The position numbers and the translations under genes are program-made. A DNA stretch of 64,000 bases from Peribacillus simplex (lineage in GTDB: Bacteria; Bacillota; Bacilli; Bacillales; DSM-1321). How positions within the stretch are numbered: the stretch's first letter is position 1; each line of letters starts with the position of its first letter. The notes below the pieces were generated by a model. That model saw only the letters and a list, made by a program, of their open reading frames with translations. It had not been told where the DNA came from and did no database searches. Below are positions 35,639 through 46,164 of the stretch, piece after piece. The stretch is taken from the NCBI RefSeq assembly GCF_001542915.1, contig NZ_LNNH01000040.1:1-64000 (forward strand), given 5' to 3'.

Positions 35639-36622
35639 TTACTTGGTGTTTTGATTAGCTGCTTTAATCAAATTCTCAAGCCATATTTGCTTGAATGCAT
35701 TTGAGCGGACACGTCTCTGACCTCTGCCTGAGCTCTCATTGGATGAGCTGCTGGATGAGCTCTCTTCTGACGAACTGCTGGATGAACTTTCATCTGATGA
35801 GCTGCTGGATGAGCTCTCAAAAACGATACTGCTTGATGAGCTTTCACAAGATGAGCTGCTTGATGAGCTTTCACATGATGAGCTGCTGGATGAGCTCTCA
35901 CATGATGAGCTGCTTGATGAGCTCTCACAAGAAGAACTGCTTGAGCTTTCACAACATGTTTCAACTATCCTAACCGATAAAGCGATGAATTGGATATGTT
36001 CCGTTGTCACATAAAATAATTCTTCATTATGCACAACAACGATGTACGCTTCAGCCACTTCAATCAGGATTCCCTCAACCCGCTCAGGGCCGCCTGCACT
36101 TACGGATACCCAGTTGTGGATCAATCTTGAAAGAATGCCATTAAGTGAATCGATACCGTCATATAGGTCTTGAGATGGGATCTCACGGCACGCAAATTCC
36201 ACGACCGTCACACTTTTGATATGGGAAATCGGGAATAAAACCAACCCTTCTTTCTCCGTGGATAGAACCAAGAATTCTTCTTTCACATCGACAACCCGGC
36301 CAACTTTTGAAGTCGGACCGCCGCCATTCACTTGGATGCAGCTATCCCTTAATGTTTCCAGTGCCCCTAAAAAAGTTCCCGGATATACAATTTCCCCATC
36401 ATTGATCGGACATAAATCAAGCGCCTTCTTCGCATTTTCGACGACGATCTTCAAATGCTCGATGGCGTAATATACGAGTTGATTTTCTTCCGTATGAAGA
36501 ACGATGTAATCACTCCGGACTTCTACAAGCCTGCCTTCTCTAGATTCTGGGCCGCCTTTATATACCCTCACAAATTTTCCCTTTAAAGCTTCAAGGTACG
36601 GTAAACTAACAGTCTCTGCCAT
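35639..36622 (-). CDS. cotB: CotB-like outer spore coat protein with serine-rich repeats
   Basis: The N-terminal 200 residues contain three copies of the CotB repeat, each with a GGP(E/T)S-x(K/R)xGR core: VRVYKGGPESREGRLVEV, IQVNGGGPTSKVGRVVDV and VSVSAGGPERVEGILIEV. The last roughly 100 residues are X-Glu-(Ser)7 repeats (X = Cys, Asp, Glu or Asn) and a basic end (RGQRRVRSN). In B. subtilis the serine region of CotB is phosphorylated by the kinase CotH; here it is acidic and cysteine-containing rather than Lys/Arg-rich. I start at the ATG at 36622. Confidence 0.85.
   Translation of the reverse strand: MAETVSLPYLEALKGKFVRVYKGGPESREGRLVEVRSDYIVLHTEENQLVYYAIEHLKIVVENAKKALDLCPINDGEIVYPGTFLGALETLRDSCIQVNGGGPTSKVGRVVDVKEEFLVLSTEKEGLVLFPISHIKSVTVVEFACREIPSQDLYDGIDSLNGILSRLIHNWVSVSAGGPERVEGILIEVAEAYIVVVHNEELFYVTTEHIQFIALSVRIVETCCESSSSSSCESSSSSSSCESSSSSSSCESSSSSSSCESSSSSIVFESSSSSSSDESSSSSSSEESSSSSSSNESSGRGQRRVRSNAFKQIWLENLIKAANQNTK
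35735..35955 (-). repeat. 27-bp tandem repeat encoding Glu-(Ser)7 units
   Basis: Eight or so in-frame units such as GATGAGCTGCTGGATGAGCT (plus-strand view) recur with a 27-base period inside cotB. Each encodes X-E-S7; one unit is disrupted to S5-IVF. Such arrays are prone to length change. Confidence 0.9.
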
Positions 36623-36987
36623 TTTTCCTTTAGCCTCCAATAGTTATTTATACTTTAGTGATATCCGTACTGCATATATATGCGCCTTGTTTCTATTACG
36701 GACTCTTCCAATCACCCATTTTGCAGTAAATCGTCGAACGCCCAGAAATATCATATGAAGCATCCCTTTTTCCAGTCTATTCATCATTCTAAAAAGCGCC
36801 CTTCTTTTTACGGAAAAACTCCGGGATTTTTCTCCCGGAGTCCTGTGTATGGATATAAGCGCCATTTCTTGCTTATACAAAATCCCTATCATCCATCATA
36901 GGCGAAATCGTTTTTTAAGCTGAATGGAAAACAACGGACTAAGTCCAAACCATGAAAATCTCAGTATTTCATCCATCATTCATTGAA
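36623..36987. other. Intergenic region between cotB and the secreted repeat protein
   Basis: It contains the terminator at 36814-36842 and, towards cotB, the space for a promoter. An 82-codon minus-strand frame (MIGILYKQEMAL...) spans the terminator and has no ribosome site, so I leave it out. Confidence 0.5.
36814..36842 (-). terminator. Terminator of the secreted repeat-protein gene
   Basis: ACTCCGGGA pairs with TCCCGGAGT around a short A/T loop, and on the minus strand TTTTTCCG follows. It is about 145 bases after the stop codon at 36988, so the 3' untranslated part would be long. Confidence 0.7.
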
Positions 36988-38286: not shown

Positions 38287-38670
38287 TCGCACACCTTACC
38301 CCTTCATTTTAAAAACGATAGTATAATATCACTAGTTATATATTCCTACACACCATTCACCTCATCAAGCTTTTTTTGTTTCAACATGAAAAAACTCCAA
38401 ATCACTGCAGTGCATGAAAATCAATAGACCGACCTGCCGTTTTAGAAGAAACATTGGAAACAGCGTCGATATTCCCACCAACCACTCCTTTTGGACTAAA
38501 CCTTTAAACAATTTCACATTCCACCTTCTTCACTACCGTTCTATTCATCTCGCACACCGATACACCAAAAAATGGAAAAGCTATGATAAAATAGTAAATT
38601 ATACTATTATTTTCGCGAAAAATTAAATATAATAGAGAATGTGGCAACAAAAAGAGGAAGGAAGTAATCT
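38287..38670. other. Divergent promoter region, no gene seen
   Basis: AT-rich spacer between two divergently transcribed genes for surface-related proteins. The TATAAT-like string AAATATAATAGAG at about 38625 fits a -10 element for the LCP gene. No ORF with a ribosome site is present. Confidence 0.5.
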
Positions 38671-39600
38671 ATGAGACACGAAAAAAAGAAAAAAAAGAAA
38701 CGGACTTGGCTGAAGGTAGTCGGGATAATTGTCCTACTTTTCATATTAGCAGGAGGCGCTTTTGCCTACTCCGTCTGGAATTCCCTAAATAAAACCGTTG
38801 ATTCGATGCATACGCCCATAGACCGCAATACGGACAAACGAACGAAGGACCTTGCCCTATCCGATCGGGAGCCTTTCTCGATGCTCATGCTTGGGGTCGA
38901 TGAACGTGATGGCGACAAAGGCCGCTCGGATACGATGATCGTTTTGACCGTCAATCCTCAGAAAAAATCCGTTAAAATGCTAAGCATCCCCCGTGATACA
39001 CGGACCGAGATCGTCGGCCATGGAACACAGGATAAAATCAATCACGCCTTTGCATTCGGCGGCGCAAAAATGTCGATGGATACCGTCGAGAACTTCCTCG
39101 ACATCCCGATCGACTATTATATGAAGATCAATATGGAAGGCTTCAAGGATATCGTTGATGCCGTCGGCGGCGTAACGGTACAAAACGACTTGGACTTCAC
39201 ATACGAGGGCGTCCATTTCGCGAAGGGAAGCATCAACCTTAATGGAAAAGAAGCGCTGGCCTATGCACGAATGAGACATGACGATCCGAATGGCGACTAT
39301 GGCCGTCAATCGAGACAACGTGCCATCATCGAAGCCGTCATTAAAGAAGGCGCAAGCGTCTCATCTTTGACAAAATATGATGATGTCTTCGATGCCCTAA
39401 GCAAAAACATCCAGACGAATTTGACGTTCGATGACATGATGGATATCCAGAAGCACTACCGGGACGCAAGCAAAAGCATTACCCAATCAACCATTCCTGG
39501 CGATGGTAAGAAAATCGACGGAATCTACTATAATATCGTGTCGGATGAAGAAAAAGAAATGGTCCGATCTGAATTAAAAGAACAATTGGACATCAAATAA
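38671..39600 (+). CDS. LytR-CpsA-Psr (LCP) family glycopolymer transferase, TagU-like
   Basis: LCP enzymes attach wall teichoic acid or capsular polymers from a lipid carrier to peptidoglycan. The 309-residue protein has a Lys-rich start (KKKKKKR), one transmembrane helix (about 13-34) and the LCP domain, with MLGVDERDGDKGRSDTM and DKINHAFAFGG plus YARMRHDDPNGDYGRQSRQR carrying the conserved Asp/Arg residues. The ribosome site GAGGAAGGAAG is clear. Lying 3-4 kb from two polysaccharide loci, it may anchor one of their products; that is inference. Confidence 0.93.
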   Translation: MRHEKKKKKKRTWLKVVGIIVLLFILAGGAFAYSVWNSLNKTVDSMHTPIDRNTDKRTKDLALSDREPFSMLMLGVDERDGDKGRSDTMIVLTVNPQKKSVKMLSIPRDTRTEIVGHGTQDKINHAFAFGGAKMSMDTVENFLDIPIDYYMKINMEGFKDIVDAVGGVTVQNDLDFTYEGVHFAKGSINLNGKEALAYARMRHDDPNGDYGRQSRQRAIIEAVIKEGASVSSLTKYDDVFDALSKNIQTNLTFDDMMDIQKHYRDASKSITQSTIPGDGKKIDGIYYNIVSDEEKEMVRSELKEQLDIK

Positions 39601-39602
39601 GC

Positions 39603-39650
39603 AAAAAGAAAGAGCTGCCGGAACCCGCATTCTGACAGCTTTTTCTTTTT
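39603..39650 (+). terminator. Terminator of the LCP gene
   Basis: AAAAAGAAAGAGCTG pairs with CAGCTTTTTCTTTTT. The U-rich side is on the plus strand, directly after the stop codon. Confidence 0.85.
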
Positions 39651-39877
39651 GCCTGTCCAATATTCTGACAAAAAATGGACGTCAATTGTAGAGATTTGTT
39701 GGAATTTTTGTTGTTTATTAGACGGTAAAAGACGGTATAATCTAGTATGAGCCAATAAAAAACCAACTTCCCCCTGCCCCTTTCACCAAACGACTCTATT
39801 AATCTCTGGACCCGGAACCCATCAACCGCCATTCATCGCCTATGATAAATGATTCCAAACAAAAGGAGTGTAATGTT

Positions 39878-39979
39878 ATGAAAATCAAAGCAGGCAGCTG
39901 GGCTATGCTAAGCAAACAGGACAAAATGTTCATTCTGAAAGCCATCAGTGATCGCTCGAGAATGAAATATGTCTCATGA
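39878..39979 (+). CDS. Possible 33-residue basic peptide
   Basis: The ORF MKIKAGSWAMLSKQDKMFI... ends RSRMKYVS. It has a near-ideal ribosome site (AAAAGGAGTG, eight bases from ATG) and basic, helical composition. It lies alone between the LCP and VanZ genes. No family recognised. Confidence 0.5.
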   Translation: MKIKAGSWAMLSKQDKMFILKAISDRSRMKYVS

Positions 39980-40107
39980 GGAATGAATCCCCTTCCTTCC
40001 CCATAGGCATCCCCTCTCTTTTTTCAATGAACATGCTCTGATGCCCGAAAAAGGAGAGGAATCCCATTCAAACCGCAAACGCCATTCGCCATTTTCAGCT
40101 ACATGAC

Positions 40108-40138
40108 AAAAAAAGAAGCATGTTGTTGGACATGCTCC
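40108..40138 (-). terminator. Terminator of the vanZ-like gene
   Basis: AGCATGT pairs with ACATGCT around a short loop, followed on the minus strand by TCTTTTTTTG, about 35 bases after the stop codon. Confidence 0.8.
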
Positions 40139-40171
40139 TTCCCTATATGTATCGGTATCAGACATATTTCT

Positions 40172-40660
40172 TCACGTTCGACGCCTTCTCCAACGGTTAA
40201 ACATTAGAAAGCAAAAAATGCCCAGCAAACCGCCAAACGTATCAAGCACCACATCCTGCAGTAAGGGAGTCCGCCCGCCAGTAAGCATTTGATGCAGCTC
40301 ATCGGCACTCGCATAAAGCAGGACACAAACCAAAGCCCCTGCAAACGCCAGAACAGCATGCTTTACAAAACTGCGCCAAACACCCAACGTCAACAACCCA
40401 AACACGAAAAAGATAAAAAGATGGGCCCCCTTCCGAATGAAAAACTCCAGAAACCCATTAACCCCCGCCGTATGGGCACTCACCTCAACCCCGCCATACA
40501 TGAATGATAGGCCCTCCAACCGATCATACCAATACGGCGTATTGAACTGCGCCAAAAAAGGCGTAATGCTCTGCTCCTCATACGTCTGCGACGAAAAAAA
40601 GAAAATCACCATCGCCCAAAGCACGAACAGGATGGGGAATAGGTATTTTTGGATTATCAA
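40172..40660 (-). CDS. VanZ family membrane protein
   Basis: The 162-residue protein has four to five hydrophobic helices and the VanZ-family pattern: FFFSSQTYEEQS after helix 1, RKGAHLFIFFVFGLL in the middle, and YASADELHQMLTGGRTPLLQDVVLDTFGG near the end. VanZ homologues are linked to glycopeptide resistance or sugar-coat processes, but most are uncharacterised. The start is TTG at 40660. Its TTGA overlaps the stop of a 42-codon ORF, so the two are translationally coupled. Confidence 0.88.
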   Translation of the reverse strand: MIIQKYLFPILFVLWAMVIFFFSSQTYEEQSITPFLAQFNTPYWYDRLEGLSFMYGGVEVSAHTAGVNGFLEFFIRKGAHLFIFFVFGLLTLGVWRSFVKHAVLAFAGALVCVLLYASADELHQMLTGGRTPLLQDVVLDTFGGLLGIFCFLMFNRWRRRRT

Positions 40661-40785
40661 CGATCAGAATCCTCGATGATTGCACTTAATTTTCCCTTAA
40701 GCTCCTCCACCAGCTCCGTTATGGTAATATCCTCGCCAAACTCCCCTTTTGCGTATGTATCCTTTAAGATTTCTAAAAATTCCAT
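40657..40785 (-). CDS. 42-residue acidic mini-protein coupled to vanZ
   Basis: The ORF MEFLEILKDTYAKGEFGEDI... ends KLSAIIEDSDR. The ribosome site GGGAGTGGGAG is six to seven bases from the ATG, and its TGA overlaps the TTG start of the VanZ gene. The frame stays open 41 codons upstream (to 40908) with protein-like composition (ELYSLYFNNRNGETVGDGG) but without a usable start. It may therefore be the surviving end of a longer gene. Family unknown. Confidence 0.55.
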   Translation of the reverse strand: MEFLEILKDTYAKGEFGEDITITELVEELKGKLSAIIEDSDR

Positions 40786-41000
40786 TCCAAACTCCCACTC
40801 CCATATAGTCGAGCCGCCGTCTCCTACTGTTTCCCCATTCCTATTATTGAAATATAAGGAATATAGCTCATTTATTTGATAATCACATATTTGGTGGGTT
40901 ATGGCAAGTTAAATTACTGTAAATATTCCATTATTAACTATTTCCTCTAGTATATTCAAAACAAAAAAAGGACCGATTCCTCAGCCCCAACATTCCCCAA

Positions 41001-41138
41001 TTATGATTGACCTAGAAAATAAGTCATGACTGAAATTAAAACCAACATAATAGCAACATAAGACCCGATAAACAGCTTCTTTCTTCTCTGTTTCTTTTCA
41101 TAAACTTCCTCGAACGTAATGAATTTGTTTTTTGTCAT
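41001..41138 (-). CDS. 45-residue single-helix membrane mini-protein
   Basis: The ORF MTKNKFITFEEVYEKKQRRK continues into a hydrophobic helix (LFIGSYVAIMLVLISVMTYF) and ends GQS. The ribosome site AAAGGAG is nine bases before the ATG. The charged N-terminus with KKQRRKK predicts N-in topology. It lies just downstream of the sinI-like gene on the same strand but beyond a terminator. Family unknown. Confidence 0.65.
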   Translation of the reverse strand: MTKNKFITFEEVYEKKQRRKKLFIGSYVAIMLVLISVMTYFLGQS

Positions 41139-41346
41139 CAAATAATCTCCTTTAATTTTGATGGCAGCTAACTGACATCGCCCTCCGCGAAGTCCCTTTG
41201 CTTAATCTATATATATAGTATCGGCACACGGCGAAAAAATTTTAAGGTATTATTACCTATTTTTTTTGGATAAGTAGTTTCGCTTACATTCGCAGCCGAT
41301 TACTTCGAATGAAATCTCCCGTCAAGTATCCCAAAAATCGGAACCT

Positions 41347-41371
41347 AAAAAAAAAAGACTGCATAACAGTC
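41347..41371 (-). terminator. Terminator of the sinI-like gene
   Basis: GACTG/CAGTC stem with a 5-base loop is followed by ten T residues on the minus strand. It is 14 bases after the sinI-like stop, so that gene is a single-gene transcript. Confidence 0.88.
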
Positions 41372-41384
41372 CTCCCCAAAATTG

Positions 41385-41519
41385 CTATACCATTATATAC
41401 TGTTTTTCTCTCGTTCCGTTTTCCATAATAAAAACTTGCACATCTTCAATGGATAATCCAGCATTTCTCGCTTCTATCATTAAACTGACCCATTCTTCTA
41501 CTTCATTGCTTGCCTTCAT
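41385..41519 (-). CDS. sinI: SinI-like anti-repressor (44 residues)
   Basis: The core EEWVSLMIEARNAGLSIEDV then QVFI aligns without gaps with SinI of B. subtilis (QEWVELMVEAKEANISPEEI then RKYL), the helix-hook-helix that binds SinR. SinI sequesters the biofilm repressor SinR, so this peptide should derepress matrix genes. The ribosome site is GGGCGGGA, seven to eight bases before the ATG, immediately after a c-di-GMP-I riboswitch. There is no sinR beside it. It is a lone gene with its own terminator, 1.4 kb from and divergent to a polysaccharide operon. Confidence 0.85.
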   Translation of the reverse strand: MKASNEVEEWVSLMIEARNAGLSIEDVQVFIMENGTREKQYIMV

Positions 41520-41540
41520 GACAATTCCCGCCCAACTTGT

Positions 41541-41612
41541 GGCAACACAGCCATCTTAGCATTAGCCTTAGATCTGTAGTTTTGCGTCCCTACCTTTCAA
41601 TAGGTTTGCTTT
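41541..41612 (-). promoter_or_regulatory. c-di-GMP-I (GEMM) riboswitch upstream of the sinI-like gene
   Basis: Read on the minus strand the element has the GEMM-I landmarks in order: AAAGCAAACC, then TATTGAAAGGTA (GNRA-capped P2 hairpin), GGGACGCAAA, a P3 arm CTACAG...ATCT/AGAT...GGCTGTG, and the closing GTTGCC, which pairs with the opening GCAAACC side. It ends 21 bases before the ATG, and the ribosome site GGGCGGGA follows at once. No terminator lies between, so control is probably at translation initiation. Confidence 0.93.
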
Positions 41613-41922
41613 TCTCAAAATTTTATGAATCTCCTTATACTATTGGTAATGCATTACGCTTTTATAAACCTTTAATTACTTAACACTATTGTAATGTTAA
41701 TTATACTTTAAAATATAATAATCGTTCATAATACTATTCGTTTTTTTTCGTCATTTTTCATCAAATAGTGACATTCGGATGCGAAACCCTGATAAAATAA
41801 GCTTTCTTTATATACGAAATAGAAAGGTACTTGCTTTAATTTGCTCATTTTACTATTTCAAAAAAATATTTTTCACACTAATTAATTTTACTTATTATCT
41901 AGTAATTCAATAATCCCACCTA
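41613..41922. other. Promoter region of the sinI-like gene, AT-rich spacer
   Basis: It contains the inverted repeat TTAACA-N9-TGTTAA at 41680-41700, a candidate operator, and several TATAAT-like strings on the minus strand. No ORF is supported. Confidence 0.4.
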
Positions 41923-41975
41923 AAAAAAGCCAGTATCACAAACCATTTTTATGGCTGTGCCCTGACTTTCTTTCA
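41923..41975 (-). terminator. Terminator of the former ABC-transporter gene
   Basis: An imperfect stem, AGTCAGGGCACAGCCAT against ATGGTTTGTG...CTGGCT, ends in TTTTTTT on the minus strand, 22 bases after the remnant stop codon at 41997. Confidence 0.6.
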
Positions 41976-41996
41976 TTTTATATATGTTTTTAAACC

Positions 41997-42128
41997 TTAT
42001 ACACTGGATTCCATTTGAATGCCTAATAAATGGCTGAACATTCCTCTCTTTTCCTTCGCTAACTGGTTATATTCACCCACCTGTATTATTTCTCCCTGAT
42101 CCATAACAAGCACTTGATCTACTATCTT
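41997..42128 (-). pseudogene. C-terminal remnant of an ABC exporter ATPase
   Basis: The frame reads IVDQVLVMDQGEIIQVGEYN then QLAKEKRGMFSHLLGIQ before a stop. This is the typical end of an ABCB-type ATPase: the H-loop-distal segment with (V/I)xDxILVMxxGxIxExGxxxxL. The Walker motifs, signature and membrane part are missing, so only about 42 codons survive. A terminator follows. It marks a deleted export gene at the edge of the polysaccharide region. Confidence 0.75.
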
Positions 42129-42175
42129 AATTAAAAGATATTAAACTAAGATCTAAGGGGGATTATCACTATGTA

Positions 42176-42301
42176 TCACTTTAACTTTCTACGGCGTTTA
42201 TTAAACACTTTCATAAAAATGCTTCCATCATCTGTTTTATAAAACTTTACTCCAACTAATTTTAAAGGTGTCCATACTTCTCTCATTTGGTATAAAGGCA
42301 T
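42176..42301 (-). CDS. 41-residue basic mini-protein
   Basis: The ORF MPLYQMREVWTPLKLVGVKF continues with YKTDDGSIFMKVFNKRRRKLK. The ribosome site GAAAGGATG is about nine bases upstream, and AT-rich promoter-like sequence lies beyond, including TTGACT at 42414-42409 and an AAGAAC/GTTCTT palindrome. It precedes the ABC remnant on the same strand, which raises the possibility that it was an exported peptide or belonged to that transporter's locus. Family unknown. Confidence 0.5.
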   Translation of the reverse strand: MPLYQMREVWTPLKLVGVKFYKTDDGSIFMKVFNKRRRKLK

Positions 42302-42430
42302 AAAAATTCATCCTTTCTTTTCTAAATCATTAATCGAGTTTTCTTGTTTTGAATATGGATAAAAATACAAACGGATATTTACCTTTTTCACAGCTATATT
42401 TTTATAGAGTCAATTTATCTTTTTTTGTTT

Positions 42431-42448
42431 AAGAACGGTTTGTTCTTT
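42431..42448. promoter_or_regulatory. SinR-box-like palindrome
   Basis: AAGAAC-GGTTT-GTTCTTT is an inverted pair of the SinR half-site GTTCTTT/GTTCTCT. It lies upstream of the 41-codon minus-strand ORF and about 400 bases before the polysaccharide operon. Confidence 0.45.
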
Positions 42449-42570
42449 ATAACGAATCAATAAAAAAAACTTATCACTATTACATTACGATGTCAATTGG
42501 TTCCATTATCTTTGCTCGTTACCGCCTTATTTATTCGTGAACTTTCCTCAGCCATTAGGACTATTTCTTT

Positions 42571-42744
42571 TTATAAAATTTTCCCTTCACCTAACTTTTT
42601 CATGACCCGGCTTGCATATCCACAGTCCAGCACCTCTTTGATCGGTCGGTGTTCTAGGTATATTGGAACAAAAAAAAATTCTGTTTTATTTCCAACATTC
42701 TTTCGATTATTAGGAATTAAAGTTGGTATTTTATTAACAGGAAG
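42571..42744 (-). pseudogene. Unidentified C-terminal gene fragment
   Basis: A 57-codon frame bounded by an in-frame TAG reads ...NKTEFFFVPIYLEHRPIKEV then LDCGYASRVMKKLGEGKIL and stop. It has no start or ribosome site but a strongly protein-like composition. I cannot name the family. With the ABC remnant it suggests decay in this 0.8-kb stretch. Confidence 0.45.
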
Positions 42745-42797
42745 CTAATGCAAAAGAAAAGATATTATAAATAGATTTATGTTTTTTTTGTCTAATT

Positions 42798-42836
42798 TTG
42801 TCTGTTTTAAAGAACTAACTATACTTTATTGAGAAC
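42798..42836 (+). promoter_or_regulatory. Promoter of the polysaccharide operon with two SinR-type boxes
   Basis: TTGTCT (42798-42803) and TATACT (42820-42825) with a 16-base spacer form a sigma-A-like promoter. AAAGAAC (42809-42815, a perfect reverse complement of GTTCTTT) lies in the spacer, and TGAGAAC (42830-42836, reverse GTTCTCA) lies at the expected transcription start. SinR bound there would block polymerase. Confidence 0.6.
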
Positions 42837-42877
42837 AAATGCTATATTATAAAAAAACGGTTCGTATGGAGGAGGAT

Positions 42878-44053
42878 ATGACTAGTAGATATGAGGAATT
42901 CGACTCATTAAGAGGTTTAGCCGCACTCATGGTGTTAATTGGACATTATTTGATGGTTTACCCATCTTATGCAAATTATCAATATGATGAAAACAGTCCA
43001 TACATGGTTTACTTTTTCAAGGAAACTCCTCTTCGCCTTATTTTCAGCAGTGGAAATGAGTCTGTCATTCTATTTTTTGTATTGAGTGGTTTTGTTTTGT
43101 ATTTATCAATTAATAGTGCAAAATTTGACTATTCTACATACGTAATAAAACGGGTGTTTCGAATTTATTTACCATATCTATTTGCAATAAGCATGGCTAT
43201 ATCGGCAAAAATGCTCTTAAGCGATACTGGATTGCCTTTTGTAAGCACATGGTTTGATAAATCATGGAAAACACTGGATTCTCCTACTTTATTAATACAA
43301 CATTTTTTATTTATTGGACAATATAATACAGATGCCTATAACAATGTAATCTGGTCACTTGTTCACGAAATGAGAATTTCCATTATATTTCCTGTTCTAA
43401 TCTTTTTATTTATAAGAAAAAAGCTCATATACTCATTATTTTTGCTTTTTGGTTTAAGTGCATTAACTACTTTAATTCTATATGTGTTTGGTTCTGGTTT
43501 AAGTATTACCAGCGTTCTTCTTAGCTTTCATTACTGTACTCTTTTTTTAATGGGAGCTATATTAGCAAAATACCGACTTGAACTTTTTGCCTATGCTTCG
43601 AATATGAAAAAAAAGATAAAAATGGTATGGTTAATTGTCGCAATTATCTGTTTTATGTACGAAGGGATTATTGGTGAAATGGATTTTTTGAACAATTATA
43701 TTTTTAGGGATTATGTGGTCTCATGTGGTGTTTGTATTTTTATCACCATAAGTGTATCTTCCCAAAAAGTTTCCAGGCTATTAAGATCTAGTCCACTTAC
43801 TTTTCTAGGTAAAATTTCATATAGCTTATATTTATATCATCTCGTTTCCTTATTCTCATTCATGTACCTATTTTACAGTAAGTTGCCTATCATTTTACTA
43901 TTGGTATGTTCGTTCATCTTTTCTATTTTACTCTCTTCAGCGGCTTATCTATTCATAGAAAAACCATCCATGAAGCTCGGTTCTTATTTTACGAAGACGA
44001 AACGAATAGACTCTATTGAAAAAACAATAGAGTTAAAGCGCAAAGTCGGGTAA
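42878..44053 (+). CDS. Acyltransferase 3 family membrane protein (OafA-like)
   Basis: This integral membrane acyltransferase probably acetylates (or otherwise acylates) the polysaccharide. The N-terminal motif EFDSLRGLAALMVLIGHYLM contains the conserved Arg and His, and about ten hydrophobic helices follow (391 residues). I choose the ATG at 42878 because GGAGGAGG lies just before it; an ATG at 42839 would put the ribosome site inside the gene. It is the first gene of the plus-strand operon and directly follows the SinR-box promoter. Confidence 0.88.
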   Translation: MTSRYEEFDSLRGLAALMVLIGHYLMVYPSYANYQYDENSPYMVYFFKETPLRLIFSSGNESVILFFVLSGFVLYLSINSAKFDYSTYVIKRVFRIYLPYLFAISMAISAKMLLSDTGLPFVSTWFDKSWKTLDSPTLLIQHFLFIGQYNTDAYNNVIWSLVHEMRISIIFPVLIFLFIRKKLIYSLFLLFGLSALTTLILYVFGSGLSITSVLLSFHYCTLFLMGAILAKYRLELFAYASNMKKKIKMVWLIVAIICFMYEGIIGEMDFLNNYIFRDYVVSCGVCIFITISVSSQKVSRLLRSSPLTFLGKISYSLYLYHLVSLFSFMYLFYSKLPIILLLVCSFIFSILLSSAAYLFIEKPSMKLGSYFTKTKRIDSIEKTIELKRKVG

Positions 44054-44151
44054 CAACTTAACGCTTTCCAACTACCAATATTTACAGAAAACATTTGTTC
44101 AATCTTTAAACTTATGGATTTTCTGACTATTTCTAAAAAGTGGTGAACTCA

Positions 44152-44895
44152 ATGAATGAAAAATTGAAAATTAAAGATTTTATGCGAATTATAAAAAAAC
44201 GACTGCTGATCATTATACTCACTGCAATTTGTATCACTGGCTTCATTATTTTTTCATCCCTGTATATTATGAAACCAACTTATCAATACTCAACGCAAGT
44301 GCTGGCAGGATCATTAAGCATGGATGAAAAGGAAACTTCCATTAATAAAGTTCAAGAGAATAGACAACTTGCCCTTTCATATATGGATATTATTAAAAGT
44401 CCGCAAATCATGATAGGCGTAAAAAAAGAATTGGCGCTTAAGGCTTCCAGCTATGATTTACTTAAACAAATATCCATTACTAATCGTGATAATTCACAAA
44501 TCATTACGATCTCCGTCAAGGATTCGGACCCGGAAACGGCTAAAGCGATTGCTCAAACAGTCGCGATGCAATCCATCTCCAAATTCAAGGACATTACACG
44601 TGTAAAGCAAATCAGTATTCTCAATGATAATGAAATGGGACAAGCAGAGCTTCTTTTCCCAAAACCGAAATTCATTATCGCCATTTCTATCGTAATAGGT
44701 ATTTTTGCTGGAATGGGATTGGCCCTTCTTAGAGAACACTTCGATGACTCTACCTACACTGATAGGGAACTTGAGCGACTTGGTATTCCCATATTAGGAA
44801 GGTTAAATTTAAATGATAAAAAGACTAACCGAAAACGTAAATCATCCTATAAAACTTTACCTTCCGCGAAAAGAGGTGAATTTGGTGAGTATTAA
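44152..44895 (+). CDS. Wzz/YveK-like chain-length regulator, BY-kinase modulator
   Basis: This 247-residue membrane protein has two transmembrane helices (about 20-42 and 176-196) flanking an extracytoplasmic domain, the Wzz_N/CapA layout. The short C-terminal tail REHFDDSTYTDRELERL is the segment that in firmicutes contacts and activates the separate kinase subunit. The next gene, overlapping by 11 bases, encodes that kinase homologue. The ATG at 44152 is preceded by AGTGGTG, a weak ribosome site. B. subtilis EpsA is the functional analogue. Confidence 0.88.
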   Translation: MNEKLKIKDFMRIIKKRLLIIILTAICITGFIIFSSLYIMKPTYQYSTQVLAGSLSMDEKETSINKVQENRQLALSYMDIIKSPQIMIGVKKELALKASSYDLLKQISITNRDNSQIITISVKDSDPETAKAIAQTVAMQSISKFKDITRVKQISILNDNEMGQAELLFPKPKFIIAISIVIGIFAGMGLALLREHFDDSTYTDRELERLGIPILGRLNLNDKKTNRKRKSSYKTLPSAKRGEFGEY

Positions 44896-45508
44896 GTTCA
44901 CAAGAAAACAATCCTTTTATCTAAATGATGTAATCAATAAAGACCAATTTTATTCTATATGCAATAATATTCAGTCCAAACTTCAAAAAGATAATTCCGT
45001 ATTGATGATTACTTCTATCTCACAATCACAAAATATAGCAAATGCTACTGCATACTTGGCACTCGCCTTTTCTGAACAGCGAAAACGAGTGCTGGTAGTT
45101 GACGCTAATCTGCGCCAACCTTCGCTGCATCAAGTGTTTAATATCGATAATTCGTTTGGTTTCACCAACTTGCTTTTAAATGAAGCACCACATAATAACC
45201 AGGCTATACATATAAAAGGAACTTTATTTTGTCTTCCGACAAGTGATGTCCTTTATGAGCCAACAGCCTTATTAACATTGGAAACCCTCCCATCTTTGAT
45301 AGCGGAATGGAAGGAAAATTTTGATATCATTTTATTTCACACATCAGATAATTTAGATAAACCTGATGCAAATATCGTAGCTAAATATTGTGATGGCATC
45401 ATTTTAGCGATACAAGAAGGAAGAGATAAATTAGAAAAAATTGCAGGTGTGAAAATGCAATTTGAGAGGGCACATCTTGAACTTTCAGGATCAATGATCA
45501 TTTCATAA
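44885..45508 (+). CDS. Degenerate BY-kinase (CpsD/EpsB-like), probably inactive
   Basis: The 207-residue protein has the fold signature of bacterial tyrosine kinases: QFYSICNNIQSKL, then VLMITSISQSQNIANATAYL, then RVLVVDANLRQPSLHQVF. The Walker A loop, normally SxxPGEGKST, is SISQSQNIAN with no Gly-Lys-Ser/Thr. Walker B, normally (V/I)IDTPP, is ILFHTSD. Walker A' (VVDANLR) survives. There is no tyrosine cluster at the C-terminus. It therefore should not bind ATP normally. The start is GTG at 44885 with AAAAGAGGTG upstream, overlapping the Wzz-like gene. Confidence 0.82.
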   Translation: MSIKFTRKQSFYLNDVINKDQFYSICNNIQSKLQKDNSVLMITSISQSQNIANATAYLALAFSEQRKRVLVVDANLRQPSLHQVFNIDNSFGFTNLLLNEAPHNNQAIHIKGTLFCLPTSDVLYEPTALLTLETLPSLIAEWKENFDIILFHTSDNLDKPDANIVAKYCDGIILAIQEGRDKLEKIAGVKMQFERAHLELSGSMIIS

Positions 45509-45525
45509 ATCAAGGAGGATAACCA

Positions 45526-46164
45526 TTGGATTCCAAAGTAAGAGTCGATAGACAAGAAGAAATTCTACTGAAGCCACTATCGACATCATCATATTTTCAT
45601 ATAAAGCGCGCCATGGATTTTATCATCTCGTTTTTGATGTTGCTGCTTTTGACACCTGTTTTAGCTTTATTTTGCATTCTCATCCCTCTTGATTCGACTG
45701 GCTCGCCTTTTTTTTATCAGCAGCGGCTTGGGCTTGATGGGAAGCCTTTCAATATCATTAAATTACGTTCCATGGGCATCGACGCCGAAAAAAATGGCCC
45801 TACATGGGCAAGTCAAAACGATCCTCGAGTTACGAGAATAGGAGCATTTATACGAAAGACCCGGATTGATGAGATTCCTCAGTTAATTAATGTTTTAAAA
45901 GGAGATATGTCACTCATCGGACCAAGGCCTGAAAGAGAATACTTTTATAGAGAATTCGAAACGTTTTTGCCTGGCTTTAAGAGCCGTTTATATGTGAAGC
46001 CTGGCATAACAGGATGGGCGCAGGTGAATGGGGGGTACGATTTAACCCCGAAAGAGAAGCTGAATTTCGACCTGTATTATATCCAACATCGCTCATTTAC
46101 TATGGAGATCAAGATTTTTTTACGAACACTGACTATCGTCTTTACGGGTAATGGAGCTAGATAA
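45526..46164 (+). CDS. Polyprenyl-phosphate sugar-1-phosphate transferase (priming enzyme)
   Basis: This is the small, single-helix form of the bacterial sugar transferase family. The 212 residues include a membrane re-entrant helix (about 29-52), the basic loop FFYQQRLGLDGKPFNIIKLR, the catalytic region DPRVTRIGAFIRKTRIDEIP, and SLIGPRPEREYF. It transfers the first sugar phosphate to undecaprenyl phosphate and so starts the repeat unit. The start is TTG with AAGGAGG upstream. It is the only priming transferase in the window. Confidence 0.93.
   Translation: MDSKVRVDRQEEILLKPLSTSSYFHIKRAMDFIISFLMLLLLTPVLALFCILIPLDSTGSPFFYQQRLGLDGKPFNIIKLRSMGIDAEKNGPTWASQNDPRVTRIGAFIRKTRIDEIPQLINVLKGDMSLIGPRPEREYFYREFETFLPGFKSRLYVKPGITGWAQVNGGYDLTPKEKLNFDLYYIQHRSFTMEIKIFLRTLTIVFTGNGAR

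Follow-up and report, generated by a model that had tools for sequence, protein, structure and literature searches.

A c-di-GMP-I riboswitch aptamer upstream of SinI-domain peptide genes in Peribacillus simplex and related genera

Does c-di-GMP control a SinI-type anti-repressor through a riboswitch in Peribacillus simplex? To our knowledge, how c-di-GMP feeds into the matrix decision of Bacillus relatives has not been settled. The question is raised by a short minus-strand segment within a 64,000-nucleotide (nt) stretch of contig NZ_LNNH01000040.1 (assembly GCF_001542915.1; this whole stretch is called the window below), where the original prediction had placed a c-di-GMP-I (GEMM-I) riboswitch directly in front of a SinI-like open reading frame (ORF). 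The features of the locus are the following.

41538 to 41620, minus strand: c-di-GMP-I (GEMM-I) riboswitch aptamer (full-length match to RF01051, 73.7 bits)
41528 to 41545, minus strand: candidate platform hairpin TTGCC (aptamer 3' strand)/GGCGG (Shine-Dalgarno-like) with loop ACAAGTTG (pairing alignment, 20 units)
41385 to 41519, minus strand: 44-amino-acid (aa) SinI-domain peptide with ATG start (PF08671, 33.2 bits; dN/dS)
41427 to 41498, minus strand: SinI domain (PF08671 positions 3 to 26)
41351 to 41377, minus strand: intrinsic terminator-like site 3' of the ORF (terminator scan, 2 found versus 0.8 expected)
41747 to 41753, minus strand: TGACGAA, Spo0A-box-like, 133 nt upstream of the aptamer
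42431 to 42447, no strand assigned: putative SinR operator, the palindrome AAGAAC-N5-GTTCTT, separating the sinI unit from the exopolysaccharide genes
42839 to 46164, plus strand: start of the exopolysaccharide gene run (ORFs and Pfam)

A cmscan of the window returned RF01051 as its sole Rfam match at gathering scores (41620-41538, minus strand; score, 73.7 bits; gathering score, 35; E = 1.4e-12), aligned to model positions 1 to 87 of 87, and a whole-genome covariance search returned the identical match. The GEMM-I landmarks named in the original prediction (GCAAACC, the GAAA-capped P2, GGGACGCAAA, and GTTGCC) all lie within this minus-strand alignment, so that the covariance model bears out the assignment. 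The bases G20, A47, and C92 in Vc2 numbering, which we take to be the conserved ligand-pocket positions, are present: the G belongs to GCAAACC, the A to CGCAAA, and the C is the first one in GCC. The predicted ligand of this RNA is c-di-GMP.

As had been described, 21 bases separate GTTGCC from the ATG of the 44-aa ORF (41519-41385, minus strand). Residues 8 to 31 of the peptide match PF08671 at 33.2 bits (cut-off, 31.4), and the gapless alignment of the core to SinI was reproduced with residues 8 to 34, which align without gaps to 1b0n_B (E = 0.003) and 5tmx_A (E = 0.0035), both SinI and the only two matches of a phmmer search against PDB sequences with E values up to 10. The Pfam matches of this short peptide were SinI and a subthreshold DUF2673, with no DNA-binding helix-turn-helix (HTH) domain among them. 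With the NCBIfam equivalog for SinI of Bacillus (NF046031), the peptide scored 22.6 bits, far under the cut-off of 80, and its top NCBIfam match was the SlrR C-terminal domain (25.4 bits); we therefore refer to it as a SinI-domain peptide and not as an equivalent of B. subtilis SinI. Binding of the peptide to SinR is a prediction. The terminator scan of the region found no site between aptamer and ORF, which led us to reject a transcription terminator as the expression platform; together with the terminator-like site behind the ORF, this suggests that the transcript is probably short. The anatomy of the unit, an aptamer adjacent to a SinI-domain gene, is secure.

The genome carries three RF01051 matches, two of them before SinI genes, and five SinI-domain matches over the cut-off. 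Contig C12 has a second SinI gene, convergent with sinR (encoding HTH and SinI domains according to Pfam) and immediately preceded by a second aptamer, so GEMM-I precedes SinI twice in this genome. On contig C40, a SinR-like gene, also with HTH and SinI domains, is located 32 kb from the window unit. The presence of a c-di-GMP-I riboswitch before a SinI-domain gene thus stands as originally predicted, but it is not peculiar to the window locus, since it recurs beside sinR and in other genera. Four GGDEF domains and one EAL domain over the cut-off indicate that c-di-GMP can probably be made and removed in this host. Flanking the third riboswitch of the genome (L001:1255-1868) are two small ORFs that contain cysteines and resemble each other on visual inspection.

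For the genus, 36 genomes were searched, and both RF01051 and SinI were matched in all 36. A unit was defined as RF01051 and SinI matches on a common strand with SinI within 400 nt. At least 52 such units were found in at least 32 of the 36 genomes, with 36 to 62 nt between both matches; genomes G003, G012, G015, and G025 had none among the matches listed. Also among the matches listed, short SinI-domain ORFs were paired with an aptamer in 52 of 100 cases and long ones in 0 of 50. At least 31 units lie beside an opposite-strand SinI-domain ORF of ≥100 aa, which we read as sinR, and at least 21, distributed over 21 genomes and including that of the window, have no such neighbor (window-type units).

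A SinR search of named genomes gave 225 loci, and the best 80, which span several genera (among them Peribacillus, Cytobacillus, Mesobacillus, Rossellomorea, and Robertmurraya), formed a wider set; it overlaps the genus set, some Peribacillus loci being from identical genomes. A match to RF01051 or its sister family RF03167, on the opposite strand and convergent with sinR, was present at 74 of these 80 best loci (19, 19, 18, and 18 in cmscan batches of 20) and absent from L107, L128, L144, L145, L162, and L170. A profile built from the 52 genus units detected SinI behind all 74 of these aptamers, at a distance of no more than 400 nt; at L159, the distance between the unit and sinR is about 2 kb greater. 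At seven loci (L126, L130, L140, L152, L155, L156, and L173), the SinI-linked aptamer matches measure 139 to 164 nt versus about 87 nt, pointing to long insertions. The GEMM-I/SinI link recurs across genera. Chance adjacency is not a likely reading given at least 52 units in at least 32 of 36 genomes and SinI behind 74 of 74 aptamers, and it was rejected. In the reading that we prefer, the widespread form is the copy linked to sinR, and the window copy is a diverged extra unit near exopolysaccharide genes.

In the sinR-linked units, the final CC of the aptamer starts a 10-bp hairpin, CCTGAAATAC-loop-GTATTTTAGG, the end of which is part of the Shine-Dalgarno sequence. When the linkers were folded alone, the second C was paired in 69 of 70 distinct linkers, the exception being L135, and in L151 its partner sits ahead of the Shine-Dalgarno sequence. 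In an alignment of 64 distinct rows, from which L123 and L169 were dropped because the 3' ends of their aptamers could not be located, 97.2% of the cells were paired, compared to at most 55% in slid controls; on this contrast, and on a stem that stays conserved while its loop varies, we regard the predicted hairpin as clear in this type. The pairing percentage was reached by 31 of 500 shuffles, and no pair had changed on both sides; with zero compensatory double changes, the alignment documents conservation and not covariation, and the latter was rejected as proof of the hairpin. Withholding the CC during folding, as a stand-in for the ligand, raised the predicted accessibility of the Shine-Dalgarno sequence by a mean of 0.26 over 31 sinR-type units, 25 of which gained more than 0.1, versus a mean of 0.07 with shuffled linkers. 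Since the competing hairpin is formed by the CC of the aptamer itself with the Shine-Dalgarno sequence, it predicts a translational ON switch. In part of the genus, the sinR-linked aptamer has an A-to-G change before CGCAAA; we dropped this as a change of ligand specificity, since by Vc2 numbering the base is presumably not a ligand contact.

A search for the sinR-type hairpin pattern without the aptamer covered 397 genomes of the order; 88 of them, representing 23 of 135 genera, had the pattern, while the exact pattern was missing in the other 309; the reversed pattern had no match among the matches listed for the same 397 genomes. Of 398 genomes sampled across the class, 13 contained the pattern, all 13 of them from the order, and none of the 360 genomes outside it did. 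SinI was located downstream in all 36 of the pattern loci taken, some of which belong to species already used in making the pattern. A cmscan of 20 of these 36 loci gave a clan match in 18 (displaced in L209, at 46.2 bits) and none in L192 and L194, and a rough regular expression based on GEMM landmarks matched 25 of the 36. In five loci of genus g44 (L192 to L196), hairpin and SinI are kept, and a similar leader occupies the expected place of the aptamer; cmscan of L192, L194, and L196 found no Rfam family up to an E value of 0.1. This leader may be a decayed GEMM-I or another sensor.

The window copy has a hairpin of another kind. Over 20 units not beside sinR, 95 of 99 cells (96%) were paired (slid controls, at most 60%), mostly as TTACC/GGTGG in the other units versus TTGCC/GGCGG in the window. 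One pair showed two compensatory and three broken cells, and the covariation score was equalled by 126 of 500 shuffles. A G-C pair that we placed in P1 is missing in 6 of the 20 window-type units, including that of the window, and a P1 extension placed in this type (CUUG/CAAG) is 90% paired, with covariation within that of the shuffles. The unit of genome G002 was left out of this 20-row alignment because it has a sinR-type platform; it was also absent from the first folding run, in which the predicted Shine-Dalgarno accessibility of the window's own leader rose from 0.04 to 0.47 upon withholding CC, but was included in the folding comparison of 21 window-type units. In that comparison, the gain exceeded 0.1 in 10 of the 21, and its mean (0.15) was the same as that with shuffled linkers (0.15), a weak control for this type because it retains both pairing segments. 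Three of the 21 units have no ATG at the expected place: G014 has TTG, and G016 and G018 have only a GTG, 12 nt higher. The platform of the window copy is different from, and weaker than, the sinR type; as a platform it is plausible, the folding predictions giving no support beyond that of the shuffles. For the peptide core (24 codons), dN/dS was about 0.08 against G014, about 0.09 against G030, 0.19 against G028, and 0.42 against G023; the values refer to these pairs, the median over all window-type pairs being undefined.

The exopolysaccharide run on the other side of the palindrome comprises an acyltransferase gene (42839), a Wzz gene (44140), an ORF with no Pfam match (44813), and a sugar transferase gene (45526), as assigned by Pfam; further plus-strand ORFs extend up to 53338, the Pfam scan having taken in the part from 42839 to 46164. 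We compared 6 kb on each side of the unit with the 20 other loci not beside sinR. On the left, the LCP gene of the window was present in 15 of the 20. Three small minus-strand ORFs, none with a Pfam match over the cut-off, had matches in 17 (41001-41141), 17 (40657-40785), and 13 (42176-42301) of the loci, the first two being those left of the window unit. On the right, the Wzz gene, the 44813 ORF, and the sugar transferase gene were each found in 6 of the 20 and the acyltransferase gene in 7. The G002 locus had none of the neighbor genes tested. At least 10 of the 21 window-type units share their contig with a SinI-domain ORF of 105 to 113 aa at a distance of 24 to 38 kb, and the one such ORF tested, that of the window genome, encodes HTH and SinI domains. 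In G018, rated as the same species, LCP, VanZ, and the two small ORFs are 100% identical to those of the window (L054 versus 38600-42800), whereas the riboswitch-SinI unit differs strongly and the right flank differs too; the exopolysaccharide side may have been exchanged. Farther to the left, an ORF at 35639-36640 (minus strand) contains repeated serine-run blocks (CESSSSSSS and similar) toward its C terminus.

Motif sites upstream of the units were read with a Spo0A-box consensus and a SinR half-site consensus that we take to be valid here. Spo0A-box-like sites occur upstream of 23 of the 31 sinR-linked units (1.4 expected) and 7 of the 21 others (1.2 expected), counts that are generous because the pattern was widened to TGTCGGA after one locus had been seen and because the genomes are related. 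The AAGAAC-N5-GTTCTT palindrome is the single match in the window (0.02 expected), for a pattern chosen after the site had been seen by eye, and the GTTCTYT half-site alone was not enriched there (16 found versus 19.5 expected). A genome-wide scan allowing one mismatch gave a weak excess (10 found versus 7 with the reversed control), with the sole perfect match (C12:90056) near the sinR-linked unit. Of the 31 sinR loci, 22 have similar palindromes 411 to 568 nt ahead of the aptamer, and 5 of the 21 other loci have them anywhere, with 0.55 matches expected across all loci. Upstream of one sinR-linked unit, palindromes resembling a SinR operator (L003:1992-2104) precede a 65-aa ORF (L003:1741-1938, minus strand) that looks zinc ribbon-like by eye. 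The Spo0A-like boxes suggest that the riboswitch adds to Spo0A control. The original prediction had set Spo0A control of B. subtilis sinI against c-di-GMP control; activation of sinI by Spo0A is stated in the part of PMC8876208 cited here, and the either/or is probably not correct, given such sites upstream of many units.

Starting from the observed aptamer, SinI domain, recurrent adjacency, and conserved sinR-type hairpin, we infer ligand, direction, partner, and output as follows. The 5' leader of a short mRNA would be a c-di-GMP-I riboswitch governing translation of a SinI-type peptide. Without the ligand, the CC at the aptamer 3' end would pair with the Shine-Dalgarno region; with c-di-GMP, the CC would be held in the aptamer, freeing the Shine-Dalgarno sequence and switching SinI on. 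SinI would then tie up a SinR-type repressor, either the SinR whose gene adjoins the second unit or the SinR-like protein encoded across the exopolysaccharide genes, and matrix genes would open. We consider this ON-switch reading, in which the leader controls translation of the anti-repressor, fairly probable, and the c-di-GMP signal would probably feed straight into the biofilm decision via SinI. More tentatively, and with somewhat less than even confidence, we propose that SinI/SinR is a two-input gate in many genera of one order, combining Spo0A at the promoter with a dedicated translational riboswitch for c-di-GMP, and that the extra Peribacillus unit supplies the exopolysaccharide genes with a separate SinI under c-di-GMP control, a SinR-like partner being encoded at the opposite end of the gene cluster.

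The window unit itself might instead be a decaying or specialized duplicate that binds the ligand weakly or not at all and does not switch SinI, leaving the real work to the sinR-linked unit. The weak hairpin with a folding gain no better than that of shuffles, the P1 pair lost in 6 of 20 units, the ATG missing in 3 of 21 (with only GTG nearby in two of these), and the strong divergence of the G018 unit next to 100% identical left-hand genes are all consistent with such decay. Yet the window aptamer still scores 73.7 bits, the peptide core has a low dN/dS against G014 and G030, and a unit of this type has been retained in 21 genomes, and on balance we think this unlikely. An effect of opposite sign, in which the ligand lowers SinI and c-di-GMP favors SinR activity, appears very improbable to us: the direction is deduced from predicted pairing only, and the cited part of PMC7793685 names B. 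thuringiensis riboswitches that respond to c-di-GMP with either sign, but the competing sinR-type hairpin joins the aptamer CC with the Shine-Dalgarno sequence, which predicts ON, and the terminator scan had no site between aptamer and ORF.

Somewhat doubtful, too, is an action of the peptide on another partner, an SlrR-type or second SinR-like protein, with an output other than the classical matrix regulon. The best NCBIfam match to the SlrR C-terminal domain (25.4 bits) rather than to SinI points that way, as do the 105- to 113-aa SinI-domain ORFs 24 to 38 kb away in at least 10 of 21 cases, with HTH and SinI together in the one tested; the SinR-operator-like palindrome between the unit and the exopolysaccharide genes argues against it, although either SinR-type protein could use that site. 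Under the preferred ON-switch reading, and provided that the units behave as expected, RNA alone would let the second messenger act directly on the anti-repressor. The conserved hairpin also offers a sequence signature for spotting the circuit in new genomes; the parts are short, and testing the prediction should be simple.

Like the B. subtilis SinI/SinR system, the one described here combines a SinI-domain peptide with a SinR-type protein containing HTH and SinI domains. Unlike in B. subtilis, where we take the sinI-sinR order to be tandem, Peribacillus sinI converges on sinR and has a GEMM-I leader; a set of 14 control genomes, B. subtilis among them, had no RF01051 match. We found no treatment of SinI/SinR in Peribacillus in the open-licence literature. 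In B. thuringiensis, as here, c-di-GMP riboswitches have biofilm- and motility-related targets (cbpA, "on," and mcpA, "off"); according to the cited part of the same article, these encode a collagen adhesion protein and a chemotaxis protein, whereas here the target is a matrix anti-repressor (PMC7793685). Overproduction of the cyclase CdgF in B. thuringiensis raised both sinI and spo0A in deposited, unpublished array data mentioned there (PMC7793685). A c-di-GMP riboswitch before sinI is not wholly new: in the open-licence literature, as represented by the sections cited here, it is placed there only by the B. methanolicus paper, Table 4 of which (PMC4342826, 2015) lists one in the 5' untranslated region of sinI (BMMGA3_08510) in B. 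methanolicus MGA3, predicted from RNA-seq and Rfam and annotated with control of biofilm formation. That precedent is one table row, given in the cited part of PMC4342826 without test, mechanism, or conservation, whereas the units described here occur twice in the genome of the window, recur across genera, share a hairpin on the sinR side, and include an extra copy near exopolysaccharide genes.
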